This document shows, in pieces, positions 11,859 through 28,946 of a stretch of DNA of 38,515 nucleotides. This DNA is from Chitinophagaceae bacterium (lineage in GTDB: Bacteria > Bacteroidota > Bacteroidia > Chitinophagales > Chitinophagaceae). The stretch spans positions 1 to 38,515 of the forward strand of contig SEAD01000032.1 in assembly GCA_004173355.1 (NCBI GenBank), given 5' to 3'. The notes below the pieces were generated by a model. It was not told the origin of the DNA and searched no databases. It saw only the letters and a program-made list of their open reading frames with translations. The translations under genes were made by a program, and so were the position numbers. Numbering within the stretch: position 1 is the stretch's first letter; every line of letters starts with the position of its first letter.

Positions 11859-13385
11859 TCACTGCAGGGCAGGGTTAGCCGAGATTTCATTCGCAGGGAT
11901 CGGCAGCATATCCACCTGTCCGGGTTTCGGATCTGTCATGATGGAAGGGAAATAACCTTTTTTCCTCCAGCGCAGGATATCGATATTGTTAATTTCTTCA
12001 GCCGCCAGCTCAACCCAGCGTTCATGCATCACAGCACGCAGCGCAGCTTCTTTGGTCGCCGGCGCAACCGGTGGCATATTTACACTTGGCCGGGCGCGTA
12101 CCTGGTTAATATAGATAGCGGCTTGTCCGGGAGTGCCCACTTCCGCTTCACATTCTGCAAGCATCAGCAACACATCCGCGTAACGCAGCAGGCGCTGGTT
12201 GAGGCCACCGTAGTGGTTGCCGGAATTGACCCACTCATAGATATTGTATTTGCGGAAAAAGCGTTTTTTGGTTACACCGTTTTTGACTGAAGTGGTCGTG
12301 TTGATGTCGGCGGCAGTGAGAGCCACCGGGCTCTGGCTGGATGAGCCGGTGAGGATCAGGTCACCCTCTTCCCAGATGGTAAATTTGTAACGGGGATCGT
12401 TTGCTTCATATTCATCGAGCAGGCGGTTGGATGGAATTGTATTACCCCATGTTTTGCCCCAGTCCTGTGTGCGGGCGTTGGCTAGAGCGCTGGTAGAGCC
12501 CTCACCATTATACCCCCAGTTGAAGCTACCATCACCCCTGTCTACAAACACCACTTCAAAAATGGATTCATCGTTGAATTCATGGCCACCGAATGCGGCG
12601 GTACCATCATCATTGGCAACATCACCATCAAAGTTCCACTGGTAATTGTCCACCAGGCTGTATTGTCCAACGAGGTTGAGCAATGCAGTTTTTGCTGCGC
12701 CATAGTCGCCCTTCTGGATCTGCACACGTCCGAGAAGCGCTGTAGCAGCACCGGAAGTGGCCCTTCCATTATCCGATGCGCCATATTCTGAGGGCAGTGC
12801 CGCAGCGGCTTCGGTAAGGTCGTTAATTATCAGCGTGTAGATATCGGCAGCCGGTGTTTTACCCTGGAACTGGGTCGGTGAAGTAACCGGTTCGGTGTAC
12901 ACCGGTACATCACCCCATTGGGATACAAGTTCAAAATATGCCCAGCCACGCAGGAACTTGGCTTCACCCACAATGCGATCGCGGAGACCGGGGTTATCGG
13001 TTACGTCAGGAGCCTTTGCGAGTACTACGTTGGCGCGGTTAATCATATGATAACAACCGGTCCAGATGCTGGTTATTACTGAATTTGTTGCAGCCGGGGT
13101 AGGTGATACCAGCAGCTCCTTACGCGGAGCTTCCAGTTGCTCACCACCGGCATTGTATTCGCCACCACGCATGTCGTGAAGGGTGTACCATTCCCGTGCA
13201 ATCATGTTTCCCGAACGCAGGATGGAATAAACGGCGTTTACACCATTCTGCAGTTCCGCAGCTGTTTTAAAATAACTTTCACTGGTCGGATTGTTTTCAT
13301 CCAGTACATTCAGTCGCTTGTTACAGGCAATGGCTCCAATAATAGCCAGTCCCAGCAGCGACATTTTAATTGTATACGATTTCAT
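11859..13385 (-). CDS. RagB/SusD-family glycan-binding outer-membrane lipoprotein (pair 1)
   Basis: A 508-residue surface lipoprotein that caps the partner SusC channel and binds the incoming glycan. It starts MKSYTIKMSLLGLAIIGAIAC, with lipobox Cys21, followed by the family pattern NVLDENNPTSESYFKTAAELQNGVNAVYS. TPR-like helices and the conserved FLRGWAYFELVSQWGDVPVYTEPV segment (about 145-165) are clear, as is the C-terminal half with LLRYADVLLMLAECEAEVG and INQVRARP typical of SusD_RagB. The start follows an A-rich leader (aaaactgtaaagaa). It is 35 nt downstream of SusC on the same strand. The specific ligand cannot be read from sequence; neighbours suggest arabinoxylan, arabinan or related oligosaccharides. 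Confidence 0.95.
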   Translation of the reverse strand: MKSYTIKMSLLGLAIIGAIACNKRLNVLDENNPTSESYFKTAAELQNGVNAVYSILRSGNMIAREWYTLHDMRGGEYNAGGEQLEAPRKELLVSPTPAATNSVITSIWTGCYHMINRANVVLAKAPDVTDNPGLRDRIVGEAKFLRGWAYFELVSQWGDVPVYTEPVTSPTQFQGKTPAADIYTLIINDLTEAAAALPSEYGASDNGRATSGAATALLGRVQIQKGDYGAAKTALLNLVGQYSLVDNYQWNFDGDVANDDGTAAFGGHEFNDESIFEVVFVDRGDGSFNWGYNGEGSTSALANARTQDWGKTWGNTIPSNRLLDEYEANDPRYKFTIWEEGDLILTGSSSQSPVALTAADINTTTSVKNGVTKKRFFRKYNIYEWVNSGNHYGGLNQRLLRYADVLLMLAECEAEVGTPGQAAIYINQVRARPSVNMPPVAPATKEAALRAVMHERWVELAAEEINNIDILRWRKKGYFPSIMTDPKPGQVDMLPIPANEISANPALQ

Positions 13386-13420: not shown

Positions 13421-16400
13421 TTATAACCCGATCTGCAATCCAAACATCACCGATTTTGGCTGTGGATATACAGCGAAATCGATCCCGTTGGTCAGCGATG
13501 AGTTGGGTGTACGGTTTCCCACCTCCGGATCGTATCCGGAGTAGTTGGTAATTGTTACCAGGTTCTGGGCCGACACGTAAACCCGCAGGTTTTTGACGGT
13601 ACCCCTCGTGAGCGAACCCAATGCATTGGAAGGGATATTGTAACTCAACATGATATTCTTAAGCCGGAGATAGGAACCATCTTCAAGGAAGCGTGTCGAC
13701 GGACGTGAATTCTGGTTCGGGTCAGCACCAATGGCCCGGGGGATATCCGTGTTGGTGTTGGTAGGAGTCCATGCATTCAGCACCTGTGTCCCGGCATTGA
13801 AAAACCGGATCATGCCTTCGGTTACCACACGGGTTGCATTGTAAATTTCATTTCCCTGTACACCCTGCAGGAACACACTGAGGTCAAAGTTGTGGTAACT
13901 CGCGCCGAGGTTAACACCATAGCTCACCTTCGGAATAAAACTGCCGAGGAAACTACGGTCCTTCAAATCAATTATGCCATCCTTGTTCAGGTCTTTGAAT
14001 TTCAGGTCACCCGGAGCAGTGCCAATGGTCTGGGTGGCATGCGAGCTCACTTCCGCAGCTGTCTGGAAAATCCCTTCCACTTCCCATCCAAAAAATGACT
14101 GGATTGCCTGCCCTACTCTGGTATTGGTAATGGCAGCAGCACCGAAATCATTATCGGCTCCGGCCTCGATATTGGTCACACCTTCTGCCAGCCTGGTTAC
14201 TTCGTTGGTCACGAAACTTGCGTTGGCAGATACATTCCATTTGAATTTGCCTTCACGCTGGTTGTAACCGACCAGGAACTCCAGACCGGAGTTGGTCATG
14301 GCGCCCACGTTCTGGTTAACCGTTGTATTGATAAAGCCGTAAGACAATGGCAGGGGCACACTCAATATCAGGTTGTCGGTTTTACGCTGGTAATATTCCG
14401 CGGATAATGTGATTTTGTTTTTCAGGAGACCCAGGTCAACACCGATGTTGAGCTGTTTGGTTTTTTCCCATTCAAGATCCTGGTTACCCAGACCCGGGAT
14501 GGAAGAATTTGCACCGGCCGTCTGTACGTTGTTGAATGGATAGTAGGCACTGTTTGCAGCTACACTTACCAGCCATGGAGTATTGCCAAGGATAGCGCCG
14601 TTTAACCCCGTAACACCGTACCCCGCGCGGAGTTTGAGCTCGGAAATTTTCGACTGCTGCTGCATGAATTGTTCCTGGTCAATCCTCCAGCCGACAGAGG
14701 CAGAAGGGAATGTGGCCCATTTTTTTCCTGGCGCCCATACGGAAAGTCCGTCCCTCCTGACTGCAGCGCTGAGGATATAACGGTTTTTGAAATCGTAGTT
14801 GACACGACCCAGGTACGATACCAGTGCGTTCTCACCAACCAATGTCTGCACAAATGCATTGGTAGCGTTGTTCAGCGTGCGCAGCTCGTTGGAAGGCTGG
14901 CGGCCGTTGGCGTTCTCCTGTTTGGTATCCTGGTTCTGCTGTTCGTATACCGCAATGGCATTCACGTGGTGGTCACCAAAGTTGCGGTCGAAAGTCAGCT
15001 GTTGTGTGTACAACATTACAGTCGATATATTCCGGTTGTTTGTCACTGTAGCGAGCGTGGCACTGGATCCGGCCACGGTACCATTGTCGCTGAAAATGGG
15101 TGAAAAACGATAGTCAAGGCTGTTGGCATAATCCACACCGAATGTGGAGCGGAATTTCAGCCAGCTTGCGAGTTTGATATCCAGGTAGGCAGTACCAAAT
15201 ACTTTCACCCTCCTGCGGTTACCCGGGTTTTTCAGCTCGGCATCTTCTACCGGGTTGGTCGGGTCACCACCGTCACGCGGTGCATCCACTCCACGGTATC
15301 CGCCATTTGAGGTGGGATCGTATACAGGGATATGGGGCATCATCTTGATCACGTTGACAAGGTTTGTCCTGGACTGTGTCTCGTTATTATCATAGGCCTG
15401 GTCGCCGTGCGCCACATAAAGGTTCTGGCCGAACGTAAATCTTTTACTGATCACGTGGTCAGAGTTGATCCGGAAATTATAACGACGGTAACCCACCGCA
15501 GGACTGGTTCCTTCCTGATCGGTAAAACCGGCAGATGCATAAAAACGGGACATTTCATTTCCGCCGCTGAGACCGATATTATGCTGGGTCTGGAAACCGG
15601 TACGGAAATAAGCATCCTGCCAGTCGGTATTGGTCTGCCCGTAGGTTTGTGTTGCCCCTTCGTAAATGGGCTCATTGATCTGCGGGTCGGAAAGGCGCGG
15701 GATCTGGCTGCCCCTGTAGGCAAGCGCATACTGCATGAATTGCTGGGTGTTGAGCAGGTCGAGCCGCGAGGTCACTTTCTGTACACCAACGTATGAATCC
15801 AGGTTGATGGCGATTTTACCATCCCTGCGGCCCTTTTTCGTAGTAACCATAATCACACCACTCGAAGCACGGGAACCGTAGATGGCTGCAGCGGAAGCAT
15901 CTTTGAGTACGTCAACCGATTCGATATCCCTGGTATCAATGGTAGCCAGGTCGCCTGTAGGAAATCCATCAACCACATACAATGGATCGGATGCAAAACT
16001 GATGGAACTGATACCACGGATCCGGACAATCGGTTCGGATCCCGGACTACCATTATTGGTAACCGTGATACCGGCTGCACGGCCCTGCAAGGCCTGCGAC
16101 ACGGACAGGACCGGGAGTTCATTGAGTGTCTTGCCATTCACGCTGGAAACAGCACCGGTCACCAATGTGCGTCGCTGCGTACCATAACCGACAACCACCA
16201 CTTCGTCCAGCGATTTATCGGAACTCAGCAGGATCACGGTCACACTGGACTTACCGGCGATGTCCACATCCTGTGTCACCATTCCCACGAAAGACATCCG
16301 CAATGTGCTGGCATTGTCATCCACCGAAATAGAAAATACACCATTGGCATCTGTTGTGGTTGCCACATTTTTACCAGGCACCGTCACCGATACCCCGCCA

Positions 16401-16594
16401 AGTGGTTCTCCGGAAATGTTGGTAACCGTACCCGATACAGTCCGGACATCATTAATACTGTGAATTTTACCTGTACCTGCATGCGCGGCCATCACAACGG
16501 CGAGTAACATGAAGACAGTCAGTTTGATCGTTTTAAGCAGCATCGTTGGAGAGGAGCTGAAGGACCTCCATCCACCGGGTTGTCGTTGTTTCAT
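13421..16594 (-). CDS. SusC/RagA-family TonB-dependent outer-membrane transporter (pair 1)
   Basis: A 1057-residue TonB-dependent importer for oligosaccharides across the outer membrane. The hydrophobic signal (MLLKTIKLTVFMLLAVVMAAHAG) begins at residue 18. I keep the first ATG (16594) because an extended basic N-terminus is common in this group, but ATG 16543 is a fair alternative. A carboxypeptidase-D-regulatory-like domain covers about 52-125 (VSGTVTNISGEPLGGVSVTV), then the SusC signature DEVVVVGYGTQ (130-140), the plug to about 250 (LYVVDGFPTGD, DASAAAIYGSRASSGVIMVT), and the 22-stranded barrel ending VMFGLQIGL. There is no N-terminal STN domain, so no sign of direct sigma/anti-sigma signalling. 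A promoter with an overlapping LacI-type operator lies about 250 nt upstream. Confidence 0.95.
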   Translation of the reverse strand: MKQRQPGGWRSFSSSPTMLLKTIKLTVFMLLAVVMAAHAGTGKIHSINDVRTVSGTVTNISGEPLGGVSVTVPGKNVATTTDANGVFSISVDDNASTLRMSFVGMVTQDVDIAGKSSVTVILLSSDKSLDEVVVVGYGTQRRTLVTGAVSSVNGKTLNELPVLSVSQALQGRAAGITVTNNGSPGSEPIVRIRGISSISFASDPLYVVDGFPTGDLATIDTRDIESVDVLKDASAAAIYGSRASSGVIMVTTKKGRRDGKIAINLDSYVGVQKVTSRLDLLNTQQFMQYALAYRGSQIPRLSDPQINEPIYEGATQTYGQTNTDWQDAYFRTGFQTQHNIGLSGGNEMSRFYASAGFTDQEGTSPAVGYRRYNFRINSDHVISKRFTFGQNLYVAHGDQAYDNNETQSRTNLVNVIKMMPHIPVYDPTSNGGYRGVDAPRDGGDPTNPVEDAELKNPGNRRRVKVFGTAYLDIKLASWLKFRSTFGVDYANSLDYRFSPIFSDNGTVAGSSATLATVTNNRNISTVMLYTQQLTFDRNFGDHHVNAIAVYEQQNQDTKQENANGRQPSNELRTLNNATNAFVQTLVGENALVSYLGRVNYDFKNRYILSAAVRRDGLSVWAPGKKWATFPSASVGWRIDQEQFMQQQSKISELKLRAGYGVTGLNGAILGNTPWLVSVAANSAYYPFNNVQTAGANSSIPGLGNQDLEWEKTKQLNIGVDLGLLKNKITLSAEYYQRKTDNLILSVPLPLSYGFINTTVNQNVGAMTNSGLEFLVGYNQREGKFKWNVSANASFVTNEVTRLAEGVTNIEAGADNDFGAAAITNTRVGQAIQSFFGWEVEGIFQTAAEVSSHATQTIGTAPGDLKFKDLNKDGIIDLKDRSFLGSFIPKVSYGVNLGASYHNFDLSVFLQGVQGNEIYNATRVVTEGMIRFFNAGTQVLNAWTPTNTNTDIPRAIGADPNQNSRPSTRFLEDGSYLRLKNIMLSYNIPSNALGSLTRGTVKNLRVYVSAQNLVTITNYSGYDPEVGNRTPNSSLTNGIDFAVYPQPKSVMFGLQIGL

Positions 16595-17065: not shown

Positions 17066-18346
17066 TTACTCAAAGAAAGGTATACCCGGAATTGCGTACT
17101 TCTTCATGGCTTCGATGTTCAGGTCCACCCCTATTCCGGGTTTTTCCGAAAGTGTGATGAAACTATCCTTCACCCACTCGCCATCGAAGTGTACAATCTC
17201 CCGGAACATGGGATCGGTATGGAAATAGGATTGCCATTCGAGGATCAGGAAGTTCGGCACTGAGGCACACACATGGCAGGCGGCCATGCATCCAAGGAAG
17301 GAGGCAACCATATGGGGTGCAAAAGGGGTATAGTAAAGATTTGCAAGGTTGGCGATGCGTTGTCCTTCACCAAGCCCGCCGGCTTTCTGCAGGTCCGGCA
17401 TCACGATGTCCACTGCACCTATTTCCAGCATCTGCCGGAAACCATAAGCCAGGTACTGGTTTTCACCAGCGGCAATCGGTGTGGAGGACGAGTCACGGAT
17501 CGACTTGTAGGCTTCCACATTTTCAGCAGGTGTGGGTTCTTCGAGCCACAACAGGTTGAGAGGTTCCATCCGTTTGGCTACTGCATGGCCGGTAACGGCA
17601 TCATAGCGGCCGTGCATGTCAACCAGTATGTCTACATCAGGCCCGACAGCTTCCCGCGCCGCGGCGATCTGGTCGTACATCCTGCGCAGTTCGCCCGGGC
17701 TGGCGGTCCAGTTGTACCGGTCGTATTTGGCCGGGTCATTTGCCTGGTCGAGATCAAACTTGATGGCGTTGAAACCCATTTGTTTTGACTTCAGCGCCGC
17801 CTCCGCAAAATCCTTAGGCTGCGGCAGGCTTCGCTGGTAAAGGGCTGTGTCGCAATACACGCGGATCTTATCGCGGAACTTCCCGCCGAGCAAACGATAT
17901 ACCGGTACATTCAGCACCTTACCCGCAATATCCCAGAGAGCAGTCTCTATCGCCGACATCACCGCGATATACATTCCCGCCTGCGCTCCCTGGAAGAACC
18001 CTCCCTTGCGGATATCTTCAAACAAACGGTGTACATCGAGCGGGTTGCGACCTTTGAGCCTTGCTTCAAAATTCTTCACGAGATGATAGGTGCCCGTCAC
18101 TGCATCCACGCCTTCCCCGCAGCCATACACTTCCTGGTTGGTAAACACTTTTACCATCAGGCTTCCTTTTATATAACCGCATTTTATGCCGGTGATTTTG
18201 AGGTCGGAGGGCGGTGAATTTTTCTCCGTTTTTTCTATCGCGTTTTCGAAACCCTGACCGAAGGTGGACAGGGAAACCAGTGGCGCCATTGCAGATGCAA
18301 TCGCAGCCTTGCCAAGGAACGAACGTCTTGATGAGGTGTGAGACAT
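17066..18346 (-). CDS. Tat-exported mandelate racemase/enolase-superfamily sugar-acid dehydratase
   Basis: A 426-residue enolase-superfamily enzyme expected to dehydrate an aldonic acid to a 2-keto-3-deoxy acid. The N-terminus SSRRSFLGKAAIASAMAP is a twin-arginine signal, so it should act outside the cytoplasm, which is unusual for this family. Metal ligands are D243 (LVDMHGRYD), E269 (LWLEEP) and E295 (AAGENQ); candidate acid/base residues are H245 and H345 (FAPHMV). The spacing D, H+2, E+26, E+52, H+102 equals what I recall for galactonate and mannonate dehydratases, so a D-x-H subgroup aldonate dehydratase is most likely. Substrate is not determined. It is the last gene of a minus-strand operon, 33 nt after the RraA-like gene. 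Bacteroidota genomes often annotate such proteins only as starvation-sensing RspA-like or galactonate dehydratase. Confidence 0.85.
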   Translation of the reverse strand: MSHTSSRRSFLGKAAIASAMAPLVSLSTFGQGFENAIEKTEKNSPPSDLKITGIKCGYIKGSLMVKVFTNQEVYGCGEGVDAVTGTYHLVKNFEARLKGRNPLDVHRLFEDIRKGGFFQGAQAGMYIAVMSAIETALWDIAGKVLNVPVYRLLGGKFRDKIRVYCDTALYQRSLPQPKDFAEAALKSKQMGFNAIKFDLDQANDPAKYDRYNWTASPGELRRMYDQIAAAREAVGPDVDILVDMHGRYDAVTGHAVAKRMEPLNLLWLEEPTPAENVEAYKSIRDSSSTPIAAGENQYLAYGFRQMLEIGAVDIVMPDLQKAGGLGEGQRIANLANLYYTPFAPHMVASFLGCMAACHVCASVPNFLILEWQSYFHTDPMFREIVHFDGEWVKDSFITLSEKPGIGVDLNIEAMKKYAIPGIPFFE

Positions 18347-18379
18347 GTTGATTTATTTTATCGGGAGTGTAATAATATA

Positions 18380-19324
18380 TTACCAGGTCCTGTCTTTCAG
18401 GAACTCCTGGATCTGTTCTTTTGCCACGGGCAACTCACTGATGTGGTCATTCAGCCATTTCGAAAAATCCTTTTCAATGGCATCCGACCAACGGGTATCA
18501 ATCTGTCCGGCAGTATAAGTACCCTCCCGCAGGCGCTGGTGGCCAAACATATCGCGAAGGCGGACGATCTCCGATGTGGTGACCACTTTCTCCGCCAGCT
18601 GCGGCGGGATAAATACTACCACACCGAGTTTGCCAAGCACCACATCCCCGGGCATAACGGTTACCGTACGGATCCGTGTGGGTTTATTGATACCTACTAT
18701 CACGGTGTTGAGGTCCCCTGGAGGATTGTGATAGGAAGGGTCGTAACTCGTATAAAACGAAGTAAAGGAACCGATCTCTTTCAGCCCGGCAACATCGCGT
18801 AATGCCCCATCATACACAATCCCATTCCCCGTCTTCGCATAAATGGCGTTGCCCACATTATCACCGATAGTGGGACCATTGCGTTTTGCACCAAACTGGT
18901 CGGCCACATACACATCCCCTTTTACGAGCAGGTCAACCGGCCAGGTATTCTGTCCGCGTTTACCCTCTTTTTTCCCGGCGGAATCAATTGCCTTCCAGAG
19001 ATCAGGACGTCCGGGCATAAAGCTGGCGGTCACAGCCCGCCCCACCAGCACACTGTCCGGATTGATCACCTCCCAGCCTTCGGCAACCTGGTAGGCATAC
19101 CCGGCACTTTTCATGACTGCCCATGCTTCCTCCACGCTGACGGATTTCATCCGCTGGAGCAACTGGTCAGACACCTTCGGACGACCGTCGGCAAAACGTT
19201 CGCCTTTCCACTCGGGTGTGAGTGCGATGAGTTCGGTCTTGGTGACCTGCACCTGCTGGCAATCAGCAACCGAAGGGAAACCCATCGTGAGAAGTACGGC
19301 TACTGACAGATATCTTATATACAT
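18380..19324 (-). CDS. exported RraA-family protein (HMG-aldolase / RraA fold)
   Basis: A 314-residue protein with a Sec signal peptide (MYIRYLSVAVLLTMGFPSVADC). The RraA/class II pyruvate-aldolase-like core lies at about 95-240. The family segment GDNVGNAIYAKTGNGIVYDG (154-173) is followed by the R-D pair R176-D177, the residues that bind substrate and metal in HMG/CHA aldolases. Characterised relatives are cytoplasmic aldolases or decarboxylases of oxo-acids, or the RNase E inhibitor RraA; a secreted version is odd, and its reaction is unknown. Its neighbours are a sugar-acid dehydratase and a gluconokinase, so an oxo- or sugar-acid substrate is plausible. At about 310 residues it is longer than classical RraA (~160), with extra N- and C-terminal segments. 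Confidence 0.8.
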   Translation of the reverse strand: MYIRYLSVAVLLTMGFPSVADCQQVQVTKTELIALTPEWKGERFADGRPKVSDQLLQRMKSVSVEEAWAVMKSAGYAYQVAEGWEVINPDSVLVGRAVTASFMPGRPDLWKAIDSAGKKEGKRGQNTWPVDLLVKGDVYVADQFGAKRNGPTIGDNVGNAIYAKTGNGIVYDGALRDVAGLKEIGSFTSFYTSYDPSYHNPPGDLNTVIVGINKPTRIRTVTVMPGDVVLGKLGVVVFIPPQLAEKVVTTSEIVRLRDMFGHQRLREGTYTAGQIDTRWSDAIEKDFSKWLNDHISELPVAKEQIQEFLKDRTW

Positions 19325-19430: not shown

Positions 19431-20948
19431 TCACGCCTGCTGCAGTGATGCGAGTGCTGCAAATTCGTCCGTAAGCTTACTGCCCAGCCGTTCAAAAATC
19501 CGGTAGTACTTCATATACATAGCATGGTTGCCCGGATCCGGCAATATCTTTTCCGTCATCAATACCGACTGCACGGCCACATCGAGCGACGGGAAAATAC
19601 CCATCTCGGTGGCGGCAAGGAGATACGACCCGAAACTTACACTGTGGTAACCGGAGCGCAGGGTTACCGGCTTATTATAAATATCCGCGACCATCTGCCG
19701 GAAAAAAGGAAGGCTGCCAAAACTGCCATTGATACACAGGTTATCTATCCGCCGGTGTTCTTCCAGCATCCGGCCAATGCTGTAAATGCCGTACAGTATC
19801 CCTTCAATGGTGGCACGCATGAAATGGGATTTTTCATGTTTGATATTTATGCCGAAGTATACACCCCTAGCATTGGCATTCCAGATAGGCGCCCGCTCCC
19901 CAAGCAGGTAGGGCAGGAAAATAAGACCTTCAGAACAGGCTGGTACGGATGAAGCCGTGTCGAGGAGCTCGAGCATGTTCTGTTCAATATCAAACGGGTT
20001 TTTAAATTCACTGAACTGCCGGGTAAACCATTCGAAAATCACACCGCCATTATTGGTCGGACCACCTGACACATACCGTTTTTCGGTCAGGAGATAATTG
20101 AAAAAACGCTGGCGCTCATCTTCCAGCACCTTATCACCCATCACGCGTACCGCACCACTGTCCTCCACCGTAATAGTGGCACTTCCTTCGCCATACACAC
20201 CATCGCCAAGCGTGGCCATACATCCATCGCTGGACCCGGCAATCAGCCGTACATCACCGGACAGGCCGAGTGATGACTGGTAAGCTTTGCTGAGCTTGCC
20301 GGCCGATGCGAATATCGGCACGAGATCGGGAAGCATTGATTCGCTGATGCCGGCATACTGTAGGGCATTATCCTCCCATTTCACTTCGTGAATATTCAAC
20401 ATCCCGGTAGCTGAAGCAATACTGTGGTCGATGATGTACTCACCCGTCAGCTGGCTCAGGATATAACTTTTAAGTGAAAGGAATTTATATACCTGCCGGA
20501 ATTTGTCGGGTTCATTTTTCCTGATCCATGCAATTTTCAGCAACGGCGACATCGGGTGTATCGGGGTACCGGTGGAACGGTACAACCGGTCGCCAAAGGG
20601 CGATTCCCTCAGTTCAGCTGCCTGGGCAACTGCGCGGTTATCTGCCCAGGTAATAGCATGACCCAATGGTGCACCGCTCCTGTCAATAGCGAGCACGCTG
20701 TGCATGGACGAACTGAAACAGATCCGGGAAACACTGTACTTTTTCGGATGCACCACGTCACTCAGCAGGCTCTTCAGTACATAAAGCATGGTGATAAACA
20801 CCTGGTCCGCATCCTGCTCGCTGTGATGTGGTTCGCTGTGAAAGGTGGGACAATACCCTTTCAGCGATCCGATTGTCCTGCCCTCCAGATCGAATGCATA
20901 CACCCGTACCGCATTGGTTCCAAGCTCAATTGTAATGATACATTCCAT
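19431..20948 (-). CDS. FGGY-family carbohydrate kinase, gluconokinase-like
   Basis: A 505-residue cytoplasmic kinase with both FGGY halves. The N-terminal phosphate-binding segment is TIELGTNAVR. The segment SSMHSVLAIDRSGAPLGHAI followed by TWADNRAVAQ, then TGTPIHPMSPLLKIAWI and DHSIASATGMLNI, is the pattern of gluconate kinases rather than xylulo- or ribulokinases. The C-terminal half has VSGGPTNNGGVIFEW and FLPYLLGERAPIWNANARG. It starts 10 nt after the AraC stop, so the two are co-transcribed, and 106 nt precede the RraA-like gene. The normally Asp residue of the DxGT loop is Glu here. Likely role: ATP-dependent phosphorylation of gluconate or a related aldonate taken up by the GntP-type transporter. 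Confidence 0.85.
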   Translation of the reverse strand: MECIITIELGTNAVRVYAFDLEGRTIGSLKGYCPTFHSEPHHSEQDADQVFITMLYVLKSLLSDVVHPKKYSVSRICFSSSMHSVLAIDRSGAPLGHAITWADNRAVAQAAELRESPFGDRLYRSTGTPIHPMSPLLKIAWIRKNEPDKFRQVYKFLSLKSYILSQLTGEYIIDHSIASATGMLNIHEVKWEDNALQYAGISESMLPDLVPIFASAGKLSKAYQSSLGLSGDVRLIAGSSDGCMATLGDGVYGEGSATITVEDSGAVRVMGDKVLEDERQRFFNYLLTEKRYVSGGPTNNGGVIFEWFTRQFSEFKNPFDIEQNMLELLDTASSVPACSEGLIFLPYLLGERAPIWNANARGVYFGINIKHEKSHFMRATIEGILYGIYSIGRMLEEHRRIDNLCINGSFGSLPFFRQMVADIYNKPVTLRSGYHSVSFGSYLLAATEMGIFPSLDVAVQSVLMTEKILPDPGNHAMYMKYYRIFERLGSKLTDEFAALASLQQA

Positions 20949-20958: not shown

Positions 20959-21846
20959 TTATCGGGGCCTTGAATGGTTTTTCCTGAACTGGCTGGGAGT
21001 ATACCCTGTCAGTTTCTTAAATGTGGTGGAGAAATGCTGGGATGAATAAAAACCTGTATCGAGCGCGATATCAGTAAGGCTGACCTCCACATTTTTCAGC
21101 AACTTGATAGCCTCGGAAATCCTGATATTGATCAGGTAACTGAGCGGTGAAAACCCGGAGTATACTTTTACCCTTTCATTGAACAAGGTGGTGCCCATGC
21201 CTACCAATGCAGCCATTTCCTCCACTGTCCACTGGTGCGAAAGGTTGCCCCGCAGTTCTTTTTCGAGCTCCATAAAAGTTTTCGGGAAATTGCGGCCGGG
21301 ATTGGCCAGATGTGAGCACTGCCGGGCTACAAGGATCAGGATATCATCGAGGAGGTGGTTTACACGTGACTGGTAACAGGCCTCCCTCCCAAACAATTCC
21401 TTCTGGATGGACTTCAGGAGATCACCTCCCTCCGTAAACTTGGGCAACACGGCCGGGCGATCCATGAGCAGTGCTTTCAGCACTTCAGCGTTTTCTTTCG
21501 GACTCAGGCTGGTCCAGCTACCGATCCGTGGCTCATCGCCATCAAAGGCTCCCACACAGAGATTGATCCAGAGAAACGTACCGATCTGCAACACCTCATC
21601 CGGATGACCAAGCTCCATACCGGGAAGGATGATCGCTGCATCACCCGGATACAATACATATGAATTGCCGCAGATTGTCCACTCAAACTTGCCGTCCTGT
21701 ATGTAATAAAACCGGAGGTGACCGTCCGCCTGGTTTGGAAAACCGGCAAGCCGGATAGCAGTATTCTTGACAATCCCGATCTCGGCAATGTGTGGAAAAA
21801 GGCGGAGCTCGCCTGCACTTGTATTTCGGAGCACAAACTGATTCAT
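20959..21846 (-). CDS. AraC-family transcriptional regulator
   Basis: A 295-residue regulator from ATG 21846; an upstream in-frame ATG at 21918 adds a phenylalanine-rich stretch that does not look like this fold. The N-terminal half has cupin-like sensor features (RFYYIQDGKFEWTICGNSYVLYPGDAAIILPG). The C-terminal ~100 residues hold the two AraC helix-turn-helices (WTVEEMAALVGMGTTLFNERV and SLTDIALDTGFYSSQHFST, then FKKLTGYTPSQFRK). It is the first gene of a minus-strand operon with kinase, RraA and dehydratase, and is divergent from the aldehyde dehydrogenase/aldonate dehydratase operon. It is therefore the best local candidate to control both sugar-acid operons, with a sugar acid or pentose as possible effector. 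Confidence 0.92.
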   Translation of the reverse strand: MNQFVLRNTSAGELRLFPHIAEIGIVKNTAIRLAGFPNQADGHLRFYYIQDGKFEWTICGNSYVLYPGDAAIILPGMELGHPDEVLQIGTFLWINLCVGAFDGDEPRIGSWTSLSPKENAEVLKALLMDRPAVLPKFTEGGDLLKSIQKELFGREACYQSRVNHLLDDILILVARQCSHLANPGRNFPKTFMELEKELRGNLSHQWTVEEMAALVGMGTTLFNERVKVYSGFSPLSYLINIRISEAIKLLKNVEVSLTDIALDTGFYSSQHFSTTFKKLTGYTPSQFRKNHSRPR

Positions 21847-21911
21847 ATGTAAGCCAGCCGGTTTGCTGTGACGTAAGCAATCGTATCGGATGGAGTAAAG
21901 GAAGAAAAAAA

Positions 21912-21926
21912 AAGTCATTCTGACTT
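21912..21926. promoter_or_regulatory. perfect dyad AAGTCA-N3-TGACTT upstream of the AraC gene
   Basis: A 6+3+6 inverted repeat 65 nt upstream of the AraC-type start. The core GTCA-N3-TGAC recurs at 36274-36288 upstream of the second susC, with different flanks. It could be a binding site for a dimeric regulator; the protein is unknown. Confidence 0.4.
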
Positions 21927-22230: not shown

Positions 22231-23814
22231 ATGAAAGAAGAAAAGAACCTGATTGGATTCGCTGAATCAGCAACAGGCAATGAACTATTCCATTCTTATA
22301 ACCCGGCAACATCCGCAGATAACCCATTTCTTTTCCATAAGGCAACGGATCAGGAAGTAAACAATGCCGCAGCGAAGGCAGCAGAGGCATTTCCGGTTTA
22401 TTCCGCGAAATCAGGCCACGAAAAAGCAGCGTTCCTGGAAGCCATTGCGGAAGGGCTGATTGCCTCGGGTGATGTGCTGGTGGAAACCTGTGTCAGTGAA
22501 ACGGGTCTGCCCGGGGCACGGATTGAGGGAGAACGCGGACGTACGGTAATGCAGTTAAGGATGTTTGCATCTTTGCTGAAAGAAGGCTCATGGACGGATG
22601 TACGGATTGACACGGCGCTTCCGGACCGTACACCCTTACCAAGACCCGACCTTCGCTCCATGCAGGTAGCACTGGGCCCAGTGGCCGTATTCGGCGCCAG
22701 CAATTTCCCGCTTGCCTTTTCAGTAGCCGGTGGTGATACTGCTTCAGCACTGGCGGCAGGCTGTCCGGTTATCGTAAAAGCACACAGCGCGCATCCCGCC
22801 ACTTCTGCAATCGTTGGAAAAATCATTACGGAAGCCGCGCGGAAAACAGGGATGCCAGACGGGGTTTTCTCATTGTTATTTGGCGACGGGCATATCACAG
22901 GAACCCAGCTGGTGAGGCATCCACTTGTAAAAGCAGTGGGTTTTACCGGGTCGTATAAGGCCGGGAAATCCATTTTTGACAACGCGGCAGCGAGACCTGA
23001 ACCGATCCCGGTGTATGCAGAGATGGGAAGCAGCAATCCGGTATTCATCCTGCCGGGTGCAGTGGAACAACAAGGCAATAAAATAGCAGCCGCGTACGCA
23101 GGATCTGTAACCCTTGGCACAGGACAATTCTGTACCAATCCCGGGATGCTTTTTTTCCCGGATGATAATAAATCCGATTTCCGGAAATTACTCGAAGCAG
23201 AGTTTGGGAAAACAAGCGAGGGGACCATGCTCGCGCCATCAATCGCTGCCTCCTACCGCCAGGGCGTGGCAGCACACCTCGAAGTGCCCGGCGTGCATGT
23301 GCTCGCCAAAGGAAATGGCATCGGTGCGGGTAACGCCGGCATACCGGTACTACTTATCACGGATGCTTCCACCTTCCAGACACATGCCAGCCTGAGTGAA
23401 GAAATATTCGGACCAGCAAGTCTTGTTGTGCCAACTGCATCAAAGGAACAGCTCCTCGGATTTGCACGCGGACTTTCCGGACATCTCACCGCCACCATCC
23501 ATGGTACGGATGGGGACCTTGCTGAATACCGGGAACTGATAGATATCCTGCGGCATAAAGTGGGACGTATTGTCATCAACGGTTTCCCGACCGGCGTGGA
23601 AGTTTGCAGTGCGATGGTACATGGCGGACCATTCCCGTCCACCAGCGACGGCCGCTCCACATCGGTGGGAACTGCGGCCATACATCGTTTCACGAGACCC
23701 GTTTGTTTCCAGAACATGCCCGGGTCGCTGCTTCCGGAAGAACTGAAAAATTCCAACCCACTTGGCATCTCACGCCTGGTCAATAACGAACGCACTACCG
23801 CCGCAATTAAGTAA
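22231..23814 (+). CDS. NAD(P)-dependent aldehyde dehydrogenase, 2-oxoglutarate semialdehyde (2,5-dioxovalerate) type
   Basis: A 527-residue cytoplasmic enzyme expected to oxidise 2-oxoglutarate semialdehyde to 2-oxoglutarate, the last step of the non-phosphorylating pentose (Weimberg) and hexarate routes. ALDH landmarks are N158 (GASNFPLAFS), K183 (VIVKAHSAHP), the GFTGS nucleotide-loop at about 237-241, E264 (YAEMGSSNPV) and the nucleophile C301 (GTGQFCTNPG). The AHSAHP and AEMGSSNPVF variants and the ~525-residue length are typical of the ketoglutarate-semialdehyde dehydrogenase branch rather than general ALDHs. The start follows an A-rich leader (aattaaaataaggatcaca). It is first in a five-gene plus-strand operon, 18 nt before the IlvD/Edd gene. 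Confidence 0.92.
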   Translation: MKEEKNLIGFAESATGNELFHSYNPATSADNPFLFHKATDQEVNNAAAKAAEAFPVYSAKSGHEKAAFLEAIAEGLIASGDVLVETCVSETGLPGARIEGERGRTVMQLRMFASLLKEGSWTDVRIDTALPDRTPLPRPDLRSMQVALGPVAVFGASNFPLAFSVAGGDTASALAAGCPVIVKAHSAHPATSAIVGKIITEAARKTGMPDGVFSLLFGDGHITGTQLVRHPLVKAVGFTGSYKAGKSIFDNAAARPEPIPVYAEMGSSNPVFILPGAVEQQGNKIAAAYAGSVTLGTGQFCTNPGMLFFPDDNKSDFRKLLEAEFGKTSEGTMLAPSIAASYRQGVAAHLEVPGVHVLAKGNGIGAGNAGIPVLLITDASTFQTHASLSEEIFGPASLVVPTASKEQLLGFARGLSGHLTATIHGTDGDLAEYRELIDILRHKVGRIVINGFPTGVEVCSAMVHGGPFPSTSDGRSTSVGTAAIHRFTRPVCFQNMPGSLLPEELKNSNPLGISRLVNNERTTAAIK

Positions 23815-23832
23815 CAGCAAAAGCATCAGGAA

Positions 23833-25575
23833 ATGGCTACAAATGAACCGGAGAAAATGAAAAAGAAATTGCGAAGCTGGGACTGGTTTGGCCGCAAAGA
23901 CAAAGACGGCATCCTTTACCGCAGCTGGATGAAAAACCAGGGCATGCCTACCGATATGTTCGATGGCCGGCCTGTAATCGGGATCTGTAACACCTTCAGC
24001 GAACTGACACCCTGCAACGCCCACTTCCGCGAACATGCCGAAGCAGTGAAACGTGGGGTACTCGAAGCCGGCGGCTTCCCTGTTGAATTCCCGATCATGA
24101 GCCTGGGCGAAACCCTGCTGAAACCTACCGCCATGCTTTTCCGTAACCTCGCCAGCATGGACACGGAAGAATCTATCCGCGGCAACCCGATCGACGGAGT
24201 GGTACTGCTCACCGGTTGTGATAAAACCACCCCATCCACAGTGATGGGTGCAGCCAGTGTTGGCCTGCCCACTATCGTGGTACCCGGCGGCCCCATGCTC
24301 AACGGACGCTACAAAGGCGAACTGATCGGCAGCGGCACACATGTATGGAAGTTTGACGAAGCCATGAAGACCGGCAAAATGACCCAGGAAGAATGTGAAG
24401 TCGCCGAAAGCTGCATGAGCCGGAGCATCGGGCACTGTATGACCATGGGAACCGCATCCACCATGGCCTGCATGGTGGAATCGCTGGGGCTCACACTCAG
24501 TGGCGCAGCAGCAATACCGGCGGCCGATTCACGGAAAAAAGTAATGGCCCAGCTCAGCGGCCGACGTATCGTGGAAATGGTGCGGGAAGACCTGACCATC
24601 GATAAAATATTAACCCGCGAGGCATTCGAAAATGCTATCAAGGTAAATGCTGCTATCGGTGGCTCATCGAATTTCCTCATCCATCTTATTGCAATAGCCG
24701 GGCGCATCGGTGTGGATCTTGAACTGGATGACTTCGACCGGCTGGGCAGCAAAATCCCGCTCCTGCTCAACCTGATGCCATCGGGCAAATACCTGATGGA
24801 AGACTTTTATTATGCAGGTGGGTTGCCCATCATCCTGCAGGAGCTGGCGGACCAGCTGCATAAAAACGTCATCACGGTAACAGGAAAAAACCACCATGAA
24901 AATATTGAAGGCAAACACGAATGCCACAATAGCGATGTGATCGCCTCACTGCAGCAACCCCTGATCGAAAATGCAGGTTGCGTGGTGGTGAAAGGTAACC
25001 TCGCACTCAACGGCGCAGTGATAAAACCATCTGCAGCCACACCCGCCCTGATGAAACATACCGGTCGCGCGGTGGTTTTTGAAAGCATTGAAGATTACAA
25101 CGCAAGGGTGGATGATCCCGATCTCGATATTGACGAAACCTGTGTAATGGTATTGAAGTATGTGGGACCGGTTGGTTACCCCGGTATGCCGGAAGTAGGC
25201 AATATGGCCCTGCCAAAAAAAATACTGCAAAAGGGGATCCTCGATATGGTTCGCATCAGCGATGGCCGGATGAGCGGTACTGCTTATGGCACAGCCGTAT
25301 TACATGTATCACCCGAAAGTGCCATCGGCGGCAATCTCGCACTGGTACAGGATGGCGACCTGATCGAACTGGATGTGGAACAGCGGAAACTGCACCTCCA
25401 TGTGGATGATGCGGAACTCGCCAGACGGAAAAACGAATGGGAACAACCGGCCCGCAGGGCCACCCGCGGTTATGTCAGTTTGTATATCGACCACGTTATG
25501 GGCGCTGATAAAGGAGCCGACCTTGATTTCCTGCGCGGCAGCAGCGGCAGCCAGGTAACACGTGATTCACATTAA
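23833..25575 (+). CDS. IlvD/Edd-family aldonate dehydratase (L-arabinonate / D-xylonate type)
   Basis: A 580-residue Fe-S dehydratase that converts a pentonate to its 2-keto-3-deoxy acid. The three cluster cysteines are C61 (SELTPCNAH), C129 (LLTGCDKTTPS) and C202 (GHCMTMGTAS). Their spacing of 68 and 73 residues equals that I recall for Rhizobium L-arabinonate dehydratase (C59/C127/C200), which binds a [2Fe-2S] cluster. Other family motifs are AIPAADSRK, AIGGSSNFLIHL and the catalytic-serine segment RISDGRMSGTAYG. The N-terminal LRSWDWFGRKDKDGILYRSW distinguishes pentonate-type members from true dihydroxyacid dehydratase (ilvD), and there are no ilv genes nearby. It sits between the semialdehyde dehydrogenase and the FAH-type dehydratase, which completes the route. 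L-arabinonate or D-xylonate cannot be decided. Confidence 0.92.
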   Translation: MATNEPEKMKKKLRSWDWFGRKDKDGILYRSWMKNQGMPTDMFDGRPVIGICNTFSELTPCNAHFREHAEAVKRGVLEAGGFPVEFPIMSLGETLLKPTAMLFRNLASMDTEESIRGNPIDGVVLLTGCDKTTPSTVMGAASVGLPTIVVPGGPMLNGRYKGELIGSGTHVWKFDEAMKTGKMTQEECEVAESCMSRSIGHCMTMGTASTMACMVESLGLTLSGAAAIPAADSRKKVMAQLSGRRIVEMVREDLTIDKILTREAFENAIKVNAAIGGSSNFLIHLIAIAGRIGVDLELDDFDRLGSKIPLLLNLMPSGKYLMEDFYYAGGLPIILQELADQLHKNVITVTGKNHHENIEGKHECHNSDVIASLQQPLIENAGCVVVKGNLALNGAVIKPSAATPALMKHTGRAVVFESIEDYNARVDDPDLDIDETCVMVLKYVGPVGYPGMPEVGNMALPKKILQKGILDMVRISDGRMSGTAYGTAVLHVSPESAIGGNLALVQDGDLIELDVEQRKLHLHVDDAELARRKNEWEQPARRATRGYVSLYIDHVMGADKGADLDFLRGSSGSQVTRDSH

Positions 25576-25584
25576 AAAAAGAAC

Positions 25585-26415
25585 ATGAAAATTTACAATA
25601 CGCCGAAAGGAATTGTTTTCGAACAGGATGGCAGCTTTTACCTTGCCCCTGAAGCCCGCTGGGATAGTTTTATCAACGATGATAATATCCTTGAAAACGC
25701 AAAGAAGATGGTAAATGGCCTGCAGCCGGGCGATGCCTCACTGATAGAAGTCACCCTGCCTGTAATCGGCAGCCAGCAGGAACTCTGGGCATGCGGGGTC
25801 ACGTATTACCGCAGTATGGTTGGCCGTCAGGAAGAAAGCAAAGCCGGTGGTGGTGCCGACTTCTACGCAAAAGTGTACGAAGCCGAACGGCCGGAATGTT
25901 TTTTCAAATCAACACCTGGCCGGGTAGCCGGTAACAATGCATTTGTACGAATCCGAAAAGACAGCACCTGGGATGTACCCGAACCCGAACTCACACTGGT
26001 AGTCACCTCGTCGGGAAAAATTATCGGTTACACTATCGGCAATGATATGAGCAGCAGGAGCATCGAAGGCGAAAACCCGCTCTATCTCCCGCAGGCAAAA
26101 ACATACGATGGCTGTGCGGCCGTTGGACCCTGCGTATACCTCAGCACTGAACCCATTGACGGATCCACCGGTATACATCTCTCGATCCGCAGGAACAACG
26201 AGGAAAAATTCAGCGGTAGCATCACGATCAGCCAGATGAAAAGGACGCCAGGCGAACTGGTTTCCTTTATTTACCGGGAAAGCAGTTTTCCCCATGGCTG
26301 CCTGGTGATGACGGGTACCGGTATCGTGCCGGGAAATGATTTCACGTTAAAGTCAGGTGATGTCATCAGTATCTCCATCGATGGAATCGGGACCCTCGTC
26401 AACACGGTGAAATAA
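25585..26415 (+). CDS. FAH-family 2-keto-3-deoxy-pentonate dehydratase
   Basis: A 276-residue fumarylacetoacetate-hydrolase-fold enzyme. Expected reaction: 2-keto-3-deoxy-pentonate to 2-oxoglutarate semialdehyde plus water. The Mg ligands E133 and E135 (VPEPELTL) and D154 ([10 protein letters not shown]) have the same spacing (0, +2, +21) I recall for Sulfolobus KdaD (E143/E145/D164). The segments [20 protein letters not shown] and [12 protein letters not shown] are typical of this dehydratase subgroup rather than of true FAH or oxaloacetate decarboxylase. Only 9 nt separate it from the IlvD/Edd gene, so the two consecutive enzymes are probably co-translated. The leader is A-rich (ttaaaaaaagaac). 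Confidence 0.88.
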
Positions 26416-26454
26416 TATCCGGTTATTCCGGCAACGACGTATAATTTTATTCTA

Positions 26455-27621
26455 TTGAAAAAAATCTGGTTCGCGGCACCCGTCCTGTTACTGATGACTG
26501 CCTGTAACGGACCGGCCAAACAAGGTCCGGCAACTGAAAACAGGAGTCTGCGCGAAGTATTCAAAGACGCTTTCCTGATCGGCACTGCCGTTACCCCTGA
26601 TATCACTTCGGGAAAAGACGACAGCTCCCAAGCCATTGTGACAAGGCACTTCAACAGCATCACCGCTGAAAATGTAATGAAGGCTGCACTCATCAATCCC
26701 CGACCCGGGGTGTATGAATTCGGACCAGCCGACGAGTTCGTCAGTTTCGGCCGTAAACACAATATGTTTATCATTGGACACACACTGGTGTGGCACAACC
26801 AGGTACCGGACTGGTTTTTCACCAACTCTTCCGGACAACCCAATACAAAAGCACAGCAACTCGAACGTCTCCGCAGCCATATTGAAATGATTGCAGGCCG
26901 TTATGCGGGCAAGGTGCAGGCCTGGGATGTGGTTAATGAAGTGATCGGGGAAGATGGCGGCTACCGCAGTACAAGTTGGGTCAATGCGGTAGGAAATGGC
27001 GATACACTGGTGAAATATGCATTCAAATATGCCGAACAATACGCTCCCGGAACGGAATTATATTACAATGATTTTAATACCTGGCGACCATCCAAGGCTG
27101 CCGGCATTACCCGGCTGGTAAGAATGCTCAAGGCCGAAGGCATCCGTGTGGATGGCATCGGGATGCAGTGTCACTGGGGACTGAATTATCCGGAAAATAA
27201 ATATATTGAGGCGGCCATCGACAGCTTTGCCGCCTGTGGGGTGAAAGTAATGGTGACGGAAATGGACATTGATGTGCTGCCGCTTACAAAAGAAGGACAG
27301 GTGATCGGGCAGGGAATGATGGACAAACAATTCCAGCTGGAGGAATTCCGGAAATACCTTGACCCGTACCGCAACGGCCTTCCTGATTCGGTGCAGGAAT
27401 TACTGACCCGCAGGTACGCTGAACTGATGGCATTATTCTACCGTAAAAGGGACAAAATCGCAAGGGTGACCTTCTGGGGTATTCACGATGGTATGAACTG
27501 GAAAAATGATTATCCTGTTCCGAACCGGATCAACTACCCGTTGCTATGGGACCGTAACCGCAAGCCCAAACCCGCACTGGACGCCATACTCAGCATACCC
27601 GCTACTGATAACGGGGGCTGA
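26455..27621 (+). CDS. endo-1,4-beta-xylanase, GH10 lipoprotein
   Basis: A 388-residue GH10 endoxylanase anchored as a lipoprotein: lysine-rich start, hydrophobic core and lipobox LMTAC with Cys17. The start codon is TTG (26455). The only nearby ATG lies inside the signal peptide and would remove it, so TTG is required. GH10 motifs: SITAENVMK (68-76), GHTLVWHNQVPDWF (108-121), acid/base E162 in WDVVNEVIG, and nucleophile E269 in VTEMDID. The TIM barrel is complete, ending with the tryptophan-rich WGIHDGMNWKND segment. It is the only polysaccharide-backbone cleaving enzyme recognised here. It is embedded in the sugar-acid catabolic operon (39 nt after the FAH gene, 14 nt before the transporter), which ties xylan to that pathway. 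Confidence 0.95.
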   Translation: MKKIWFAAPVLLLMTACNGPAKQGPATENRSLREVFKDAFLIGTAVTPDITSGKDDSSQAIVTRHFNSITAENVMKAALINPRPGVYEFGPADEFVSFGRKHNMFIIGHTLVWHNQVPDWFFTNSSGQPNTKAQQLERLRSHIEMIAGRYAGKVQAWDVVNEVIGEDGGYRSTSWVNAVGNGDTLVKYAFKYAEQYAPGTELYYNDFNTWRPSKAAGITRLVRMLKAEGIRVDGIGMQCHWGLNYPENKYIEAAIDSFAACGVKVMVTEMDIDVLPLTKEGQVIGQGMMDKQFQLEEFRKYLDPYRNGLPDSVQELLTRRYAELMALFYRKRDKIARVTFWGIHDGMNWKNDYPVPNRINYPLLWDRNRKPKPALDAILSIPATDNGG

Positions 27622-27635
27622 CCAAAACATCAACG

Positions 27636-28946
27636 ATGCAATTAGTGATTATCGGCCTCTCCGTTGCCATACAGATCTTCCTTACTGCGAAGAAAATCAG
27701 CCCGTTTATTTCATTGCTTATCATTGCCATCATGTCGGGGTTGTTGCTGGGCATGGAACCAATGGAAGTAATCCGGTCGGTGGAACGTGGCGTAGCCAAC
27801 ACACTCGGCGGTCTTGCACTGATCATCTGCCTGGGGGCCATCCTGGGGAAATTACTGGAAGTAAGTGGTGCGGCGGAACGGATCTCGGGAACACTTATAA
27901 CAGCATTTGGTACATCCAATATCCAGTGGGCAGTGCTGCTTACCGGTTTCCTGATTGGCATCCCACTTTATTACAATGCCGGTTTTGTTATACTCGTGCC
28001 GCTGGTATTTTCAATTTCGAGGCGGGCATCACTGCCGCTGATGTATGTGGCCATCCCCATGGCCGCATCCCTGTCGACCACCCATTGTTTCCTGCCCCCG
28101 CACCCGAGTCCTGTTTTCCTGGTCAACGCATTCAGGGCAGACATGGGAAAGACACTGGTGTACGGCCTTATGATCACGGTGCCGGTGGTGATCATCGCCG
28201 GTCCCCTGCTTGGCCGGTTACTGCGCAAAATGATTGTGCCCTTACCCGAAATCGATCGTTCGCTACTGCCGGCCACTGAAAGGCAACTGCCACCGGCACT
28301 GCCCAGTTTCCTGCTGGGACTGCTGCCGGTTATACTGATTACCACCTCCGTACTGGCTTCAAGTATACCTGGTACCGGCATCATCAGGACCATCCTGCTC
28401 TTCGCCGGCGATTCCACCATCGCGCTGCTGATCTCCGTACTCTTTGCCATTTATTATTTCGGTGTACGTACCGGCGCAGGCATGCCGGCCACCATGAAAT
28501 GGCTGAATGATGCGATTTCAGGGATATCCGTCATCCTGCTGATCATCACCGCGGGTGGGGTATTCAAACAGGTACTGCAGGATAGTGGCACCGATCGCTA
28601 CATCGCATCCTTCAGCACGGCCTGGAACCTGCCCCCACTGCTGTTCGGATGGATGATTACTGCCCTCTTACGTGTCGCAATAGGGTCGGCTACCGTGGCC
28701 GGCATTACCGCAGCCGGGGTGGTAAGCCCGCTGGTACTCTCGGGTACCGTTTCACCCGAACTGATGGTACTGGCCATCGGTACCGGCAGCGTTTTTGGTT
28801 CACATGTCAATGATTCGGGGTTCTGGATGTTCAAGGAATTTTTCAACCTGACCATGCGACAGACGTTCCTTTCCTGGTCGGTTATGGAAACATCGATCTC
28901 CATCCTCGGATTGATAGGCGTACTGCTGCTGGATCTTTTTATCTGA
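27636..28946 (+). CDS. GntP-family sugar-acid (gluconate/aldonate):H+ symporter
   Basis: A 436-residue inner-membrane transporter with about 11-12 hydrophobic segments. GntP-family signatures include GVANTLGGLALIICLGAILG (about 52-71), the IPLYYNAGFVILVPL segment, AASLSTTHCFLPPHPSP, and the C-terminal GSVFGSHVNDSGFWMFKEFF with conserved HVNDSGFW. The family carries gluconate, ketogluconate, D-serine or glycerate; the neighbouring pentonate dehydratase and keto-acid enzymes suggest an aldonate such as xylonate or arabinonate. It ends the operon and stops five bases before the convergent GH97 gene, with no room for a separate terminator. The start has no Shine-Dalgarno, only an A-rich leader. 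Confidence 0.92.
   Translation: MQLVIIGLSVAIQIFLTAKKISPFISLLIIAIMSGLLLGMEPMEVIRSVERGVANTLGGLALIICLGAILGKLLEVSGAAERISGTLITAFGTSNIQWAVLLTGFLIGIPLYYNAGFVILVPLVFSISRRASLPLMYVAIPMAASLSTTHCFLPPHPSPVFLVNAFRADMGKTLVYGLMITVPVVIIAGPLLGRLLRKMIVPLPEIDRSLLPATERQLPPALPSFLLGLLPVILITTSVLASSIPGTGIIRTILLFAGDSTIALLISVLFAIYYFGVRTGAGMPATMKWLNDAISGISVILLIITAGGVFKQVLQDSGTDRYIASFSTAWNLPPLLFGWMITALLRVAIGSATVAGITAAGVVSPLVLSGTVSPELMVLAIGTGSVFGSHVNDSGFWMFKEFFNLTMRQTFLSWSVMETSISILGLIGVLLLDLFI

Follow-up and report, generated by a model that had tools for sequence, protein, structure and literature searches.

Why should two enzymes of sugar-acid breakdown, in which dehydration and keto-acid cleavage have to our knowledge been described as cytoplasmic, be encoded side by side with N-termini that resemble export signals? 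The question is raised by the window analysed here, a stretch of 38,515 nucleotides from a Chitinophagaceae bacterium (contig C42 of a 5.36 Mb genome assembly in 372 contigs), in which the gene of an RraA-fold protein is followed on the minus strand by that of an enolase-superfamily dehydratase. The features of this pair are as follows:

17066..18346, minus strand: MR/MLE enolase-superfamily sugar-acid dehydratase with a predicted twin-arginine translocation (Tat) signal, 426 amino acids (aa); Pfam PF13378/PF02746
18257..18346, minus strand: Tat signal region, approximately residues 1-30, RR at 7-8
18380..19324, minus strand: RraA-fold protein with a predicted general secretory (Sec) signal, 314 aa, proposed 2-keto-3-deoxy-acid aldolase; PF03737, 53 bits
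19256..19324, minus strand: Sec signal region of the RraA-fold protein, approximately residues 1-23
18794..18862, minus strand: D155-x20-R176-D177, metal/catalytic motif of the RraA/HMG-CHA aldolase fold

Our answer, to which we assign a probability of roughly 0.6, is that the two proteins would act consecutively, as an exported dehydratase and an exported RraA aldolase, in an extracytoplasmic, non-phosphorylating route of sugar-acid breakdown. The observations that carry this reading are conserved export signals, the pairing of the two genes, intact active sites and the genes found beside them.

Export signals and active sites

The pair was compared with its relatives in two sets of loci that have three genomes in common, namely a first set of 38 neighbourhoods (36 loci, the window and a second locus of the same genome on contig C336) and a set of 80 named loci, the best 80 of 416 relatives and nearly all from records with Bacteroidota names. 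These relatives are not independent samples. Tat and Sec signals were called with home-made rules; the strict Tat rule disallows an acidic residue beside the arginine pair, and the plain motif is RR-x-[FLIVM] within the first 90 residues. Enolases of type A have a histidine at the position of H185 of the E. coli D-galactonate dehydratase DgoD and those of type B a tyrosine, phenylalanine or tryptophan, and because of this exchange the two types probably differ in substrate.

The N-terminus of the enolase, MSHTSSRRSFLGKAAIASAMAPLVSLSTFG, carries the motif SRRSFL at residues 6-11, and residue 1 of DgoD aligns to its residue 49, which leaves an extension of 48 residues. R7, R8 and F10 are invariant in all 97 distinct aligned type-A enolases (100 rows, three of which are one genome counted twice; the distant enolase L136_3, at 26% identity, was excluded), against a mean top-residue frequency of 0.51 for the other residues at positions 1-45 and of 0.78 for residues 50-426. 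In the first set, the strict Tat rule matched 27 of 29 enolases and 6 of 311 unclassified open reading frames (ORFs), and none of the products of 17 FGGY, 16 AraC, 8 aldehyde dehydrogenase (ALDH), 6 FAA-hydrolase and 5 IlvD genes. Among the named loci it matched 72 of 84 type-A enolases, 6 of 32 of type B and 18 of 479 unclassified ORFs, and the plain motif occurred in 84/84, 30/32 (the other two are truncated) and 45/479, respectively. With its RR motif, the hydrophobic stretch that follows it and the one TatC encoded in the genome, the enolase has the features of a predicted Tat substrate. A third MR/MLE protein of the genome (L008, contig C155), which is without an RraA neighbour, starts MNRKDFVRLTGVASAG and has a possible, if imperfect, Tat motif.

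The RraA-fold protein begins MYIRYLSVAVLLTMGFPSVADCQQ, and its match to solved RraA structures starts only at residue 50-55. By eye, the 43 relatives listed in the first set share a short hydrophobic N-terminal segment ending near A-Q, with Q23 in 42 of them. The Sec rule matched 36 of these 43 ORFs, and a looser version 113 of 117 in the named set; as the rule also matches many unclassified ORFs (119/311 and 191/479, respectively), the argument for Sec rests on conservation. The protein has the make-up of a predicted Sec substrate, with a short basic n-region, a hydrophobic core and small residues near the cleavage site. Both ORFs lie where the first-pass annotation had placed them, and the twin-arginine and Sec-type signals that it had read in them are upheld by these comparisons. 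False start codons were considered as a source of false signals and rejected: each start is preceded, three codons upstream, by an in-frame stop, and the signals are conserved.

The enolase scores above the curated Pfam cut-offs (MR_MLE_C 191 bits, MR_MLE_N 34 bits), as does the RraA-fold protein for PF03737, and both remain under the cut-off of every NCBIfam model listed. The top NCBIfam match of the enolase is galactonate dehydratase, at 231 bits against a cut-off of 311, and for this reason we class it as dehydratase-like and not as DgoD; its closest solved relative, 2qq6, is named only as an MR/MLE-like protein. Over 373 columns it shares 29% identity with DgoD, and D243, H245, E269, E295, D318, H345 and E370 align to DgoD D183, H185, E209, E235, D258, H285 and E310. 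The metal ligands D243, E269 and E295 are retained, and the counterparts of H185 and H285, which we take to be the acid/base residues of DgoD, are found in 97/97 (H245) and 95/97 (H345, the remaining two being gapped) of the distinct type-A sequences.

RraA in its classical sense is an RNase E inhibitor, a small cytoplasmic protein that binds RNase E. The first-pass annotation had set this role aside for the window protein, and we likewise consider it unlikely, given the size, the signal and the fold rank. An AF2 model of the protein (pLDDT 80.2) gave the Foldseek matches 5x15 (1.8e-13), 5ir2 (4.0e-13), 3k4i (7.0e-13) and the HMG/CHA aldolase 3noj (1.2e-11), all of which rank ahead of the small RraA structures; 5x15, 3k4i and 3noj outrank 1q5x, 5x15 itself being titled an unusual member of the RNase ES inhibitor family. 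By size and fold rank, the protein resembles the HMG/CHA-aldolase type more than it does the small inhibitor. PDB entry 5ir2 is titled a cellulase from gut microbes, a name that may mislead in view of its strong match to the RraA fold.

D155, R176 and D177 align to the GD...RD residues of 3noj. In that enzyme, R123 is described as catalytic and D124 and E199 as binding the metal; either of two motifs compatible with class II aldolase activity is present in most of its homologs (PMC5065237). The RD pair is kept in 43 of 43 RraA relatives, 8 of which have S or A in place of the first D, and the complete D-x20-R-D is found in 107 of the 117 RraA ORFs of the named set. Loss of the metal-binding residues, which the first-pass annotation had named as a refutation of its reading, is accordingly not seen in the window, the catalytic residues being intact in the alignments of both proteins.

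Pairing across genomes and a second partner

Of the 79 type-A RraA genes that were scored in the named loci, 77 adjoin an enolase gene, 76 of them on the same strand and 72 with the RraA gene first; the two exceptions have a BASS gene in between (L082) or meet the end of the contig (L155). The RraA gene of L146 was not among the picks of this set; it is present, has a signal-like start and adjoins its enolase. Records named Chitinophagaceae, Mucilaginibacter, Cyclobacteriaceae, Spirosoma, Runella, Muricauda and others hold the pair. The record Chitinophagaceae bacterium PMG_180 carries the same pair, its enolase matching that of a same-genus genome exactly throughout the mature part. An RraA relative at E <= 1e-30 is found in 28 of 117 family genomes. 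One Bacteroidota-type locus (L095) comes from a record that bears the name of an actinobacterium, Williamsia sp. isolate E01; this assembly has probably been misbinned or mislabelled.

All 16 loci of the first set that were picked as close orthologs have an enolase; of 20 further loci, 8 have a longer, type-B enolase and 12 have none. (The RraA gene of L047 was not among the picks from the 38 neighbourhoods; the same gene appears in L018.) In a phylum sample, for which the fetched flanks were only about 1.5-3 kb, an enolase lies in the fetched stretch for 14 of 20 distinct exported-type RraA ORFs compared to 1 of 28 other RraA-domain ORFs. The genome of the window itself holds a second pair, on contig C336 at about 39321-43242 (L011 9322-13243), in which the RraA protein has a Sec-like start and the enolase carries KRRSFL; the gene of a BASS/PanS-like transporter comes next. 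Both RraA-domain proteins of this genome are thereby paired with RR-motif enolases, and the coordinates of its other five PF13378 matches place none of them near an RraA gene. The enolase and RraA genes are one unit. BASS genes occur in 41 of the 80 named loci; the best match that has a name is PanS, a ketopantoate transporter, at 236 bits and so under the cut-off of 400.

The C336 enolase has an unusually long n-region of about 30 residues ahead of the RR, like its type-B relatives. A cousin pair (L168/L216) shows no signals by eye; in L216, a distant RraA gene, an enolase, SMP-30 and a short-chain dehydrogenase/reductase form a signal-less run. A different, distant RraA group (L180, L181, L182, L185, L186, L187, L188, L192) has Sec-like N-termini by eye and no enolase within the fetched stretch.

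Among the 12 enolase-less loci with an exported RraA protein, 9 hold a DgaE-like, pyridoxal phosphate-dependent ammonia-lyase (TIGR01437, 184 bits, under the cut-off of 385). Counted by hand, these 9 loci also hold an amidohydrolase (9), BASS (8), RidA (6), SMP-30 (6), a GSDH/cytochrome c protein (4), a pyrroloquinoline quinone (PQQ) dehydrogenase (3) and GH20 (2). RR-x-[FLIVM] lies near the N-terminus of 11/11 DgaE-like and 6/6 RidA proteins compared to 12/373 others; the strict Tat rule matches 5 of 6 RidA and the Sec rule 5 of 6 SMP-30 proteins. In family genomes with a DgaE-like gene, this gene lies within 10 kb of the RraA gene in 10 of 13, again by hand, the exceptions being G053, G055 and G059. 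The clusters concerned (L070, L071, L072, L074-L077, L079 and L081) combine the DgaE-like gene with an amidohydrolase/deacetylase that has a Sec-like start, and often with RidA and SMP-30; the presence of GH20 in L070 and L074 suggests extracytoplasmic oxidation of N-acetylglucosamine.

Acting on an unphosphorylated 2-amino-aldonate, an enzyme of the DgaE type would yield a 2-keto-3-deoxy acid, as would one of the DgoD type acting on an aldonate. Since either partner would yield such an acid, the RraA-fold protein looks like the shared next enzyme after both, and the DgaE-like substitution lends independent support to its proposed role on keto acids.

Gene context in the window

The pair stands in a minus-strand gene order of AraC, FGGY kinase, RraA-fold protein, MR/MLE enolase, SusC and SusD, the further members of which are:

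20959..21918, minus strand: AraC-family regulator, first gene of the run; Pfam
19431..20948, minus strand: FGGY kinase without a signal, upstream in the same orientation; Pfam
13421..16594, minus strand: SusC-like TonB-dependent transporter, downstream context; Pfam Plug/CarbopepD_reg_2
11859..13385, minus strand: SusD-like protein, downstream context; Pfam SusD_RagB

These neighbours are found in a minority of the named loci (FGGY in 17 of 80, AraC in 16 of 80). The kinase scores 402 bits for the gluconokinase model TIGR01314, under the cut-off of 649. A SusC of a different cluster is present in 39 of 80 named loci and the type of the window in only 4; for SusD, the corresponding counts are 35 and 2.

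Elsewhere in the window, Pfam places GH127, two GH43 and an alpha-L-arabinofuranosidase in the left part, and a Gfo/Idh/MocA oxidoreductase with the Tat motif SRRTFI lies at 7199-8323. A divergent plus-strand run at 22231-28946 encodes, by Pfam, ALDH, IlvD/EDD (above the cut-off of PRK06131), an FAA-hydrolase-family protein, GH10 and GntP; beside the arabinoxylan-type glycosidases, it resembles a cytosolic oxidative pentose route.

A proposed extracytoplasmic route and its alternatives

In the route that we propose, aldonates would be supplied by exported quinoprotein dehydrogenases and lactonases. The enolase, leaving via Tat folded and with its metal, would dehydrate an aldonate to the 2-keto-3-deoxy-aldonate by DgoD-like chemistry; the Sec-exported RraA-fold enzyme, most likely a metal-dependent pyruvate aldolase, would cleave this to pyruvate and a short aldehyde, and a BASS/PanS-like carrier may import the keto acid. 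The periplasmic location, the substrate, the order of the steps, the direction of transport and the aldol cleavage are all proposed here from sequence comparison. Of the periplasmic sugar-acid chemistry envisaged in the first-pass annotation, dehydration followed by keto-acid cleavage remains the best reading, whereas an oxidation by the Gfo/Idh/MocA protein is not borne out: relatives of this supposed partner occur in 5 of 80 named loci and in 5 of the 38 neighbourhoods, the window included. Outside the window, the same genome encodes GSDH proteins, an SMP-30 protein and a PQQ dehydrogenase that is split into pieces at contig ends; several of these have lipoprotein-like N-termini by eye, so that aldonates could be produced outside the cytoplasm. 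Better candidates for the oxidation than Gfo/Idh/MocA are exported quinoprotein dehydrogenases and lactonases, though these too are uncommon beside type-A pairs (PQQ dehydrogenase in 4 and SMP-30 in 3 of 80 named loci).

Several results weigh against this reading. Sugar-acid genes of cytosolic type (IlvD, FAA hydrolase, ALDH, GntP) are present in the window as well, and no BASS gene was found in it. The strict Tat rule reaches only 6 of 32 enolases of type B, in large part because many of these have the acidic neighbour of the RR that it disallows, and only 2 of 11 DgaE-like proteins; the Sec rule reaches 10 of 14 amidohydrolases. Of the 117 RraA ORFs of the named set, 10 have S or A at the position of the catalytic D, an exchange also found near DgaE-like genes (L076, L079, L081). 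For 6 of the 20 exported-type RraA ORFs of the phylum sample, the short stretch fetched contains no enolase, and 3 of the 12 enolase-less loci (L073, L078, L080) lack the DgaE-like gene too. Finally, the nearest characterised relative, FlDet of Flavobacterium sp. UMI-01, took none of KDG, KDPG, DEHU and HOD according to excerpts of its description (PMC8563752).

This last point leads to the alternative that we regard as unlikely yet worth weighing, in which the pair is exported and the RraA-fold protein is a FlDet-like dehydratase, with or without decarboxylation, that converts the keto-deoxy acid to alpha-ketoglutaric semialdehyde (alpha-KGSA) or a related compound and not to pyruvate. FlDet is described in the same excerpts as a KDGR dehydratase/decarboxylase that converts keto-deoxy-glucarate to alpha-KGSA (PMC8563752), and a tree of 50 RraA-domain sequences joins the exported family to a FlDet-like clade (support 1.0 for 33 sequences), so called after a 237-aa ORF of L215 whose N-terminus agrees by eye with that of FlDet in 15 of 19 residues and which adjoins ALDH and a PF14592 lyase. 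The divergent ALDH of the window, too, has alpha-KGSA dehydrogenase as its best NCBIfam match, far under the cut-off (118 of 770 bits). The two clades are, however, separate, the exported one (27 sequences, 0.895) being sister to the FlDet-like one (6 sequences, 0.991) and not nested in it. In the tree alignment, 5 of 6 FlDet-like sequences have S at the position of D155, where 22 of 27 exported ones have D, a difference which may reflect a different chemistry. Moreover, the enolase and the DgaE-like partner indicate aldonates and 2-amino-aldonates, and by family knowledge the FAA-hydrolase-family protein of the window could already perform a keto-deoxy-pentonate dehydratase step. Among the compounds tested, as excerpted, FlDet accepted only the aldarate-derived keto acid (PMC8563752).

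Less probable still would be an exported pair that acts on another class of substrate, such as terminal aldonates of oligosaccharides or a non-carbohydrate hydroxy acid, with an RraA protein that is oxaloacetate-decarboxylase-like and has no part in a sugar-acid pathway. The scores of both proteins under all listed NCBIfam cut-offs and the unspecific name of 2qq6 are consistent with it; the coupling to lactonases, sugar dehydrogenases, SusCD and BASS or galactonate-type major facilitator superfamily carriers in part of the loci, and of RraA to two different keto-acid-forming partners, argues against it. That the N-termini are merely signal-like and both proteins cytoplasmic, a doubt which the home-made rules invite, appears very improbable: RR and F stand in 97 of 97 distinct type-A sequences, and Sec-like N-termini run through the RraA family, with none seen by eye in the signal-less L168/L216 cousins.

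Among the known systems that come closest, DgoD has metal ligands and acid/base residues to which those of the window enolase align; the window enolase differs from DgoD in its Tat-motif extension and in its partner, RraA, dgoD lying with dgoA and dgoK. With 3noj, the window RraA protein has the fold and the aligned D-x20-R-D motif in common, whereas the sequence similarity is weak (42 bits by profile) and the window protein differs in its export signal, its extended C-terminus and its setting among sugar-acid genes. FlDet, whose clade is sister to the exported family among the sampled Bacteroidota RraA proteins, likewise has a 2-keto-3-deoxy sugar acid as its substrate; as described in excerpt, it differs in having 237 aa, in its purification from cell extract with the start methionine, in its alginate context and in being inactive on KDG (PMC8563752). 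No description of an exported enolase/RraA pair was found in excerpts of the open-licence literature in PubMed Central. With regard to the first-pass statement that characterised members of both families are cytoplasmic, a gluconate/galactonate dehydratase appears in a table of an experimental archaeal secretome (PMC8345856).

Aldonate dehydration followed by cleavage of the keto-deoxy acid is also the course of the non-phosphorylative Entner-Doudoroff and De Ley-Doudoroff pathways; these pathways are cytoplasmic, whereas here export signals and an RraA-fold last enzyme are found. Periplasmic glucose oxidation by PQQ dehydrogenase likewise oxidizes a sugar outside before uptake, but there oxidation alone takes place outside, whereas here dehydration and cleavage apparently do so too.

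Taken together, the recurrence of the exported pair in many relatives suggests that some sugar acids are broken down outside the inner compartment before uptake. A wider proposal, which we put forward as tentative and somewhat short of an even chance, is that in many Bacteroidota the whole sugar-acid pathway would run outside the cytoplasm, from quinoprotein oxidation and lactone opening to dehydration by the Tat-exported enolase and cleavage by the exported RraA aldolase. Carbon would enter via BASS as pyruvate or another keto acid, not as sugar, and an amino-sugar branch fed by chitin-like material would involve deacetylation and the release of ammonia by a DgaE-like enzyme exported through Tat, together with an exported RidA. 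Because the enolase and the DgaE-like protein can stand in for each other as partners, the substrate of RraA is open to a direct test. If the reading is true, RraA-domain proteins with relatives named RNase regulators or methyltransferases would gain a catalytic role; and if it is true in many Bacteroidota, the pair would mark an unrecognised entry point of carbon uptake and would change predictions of what these bacteria feed on.

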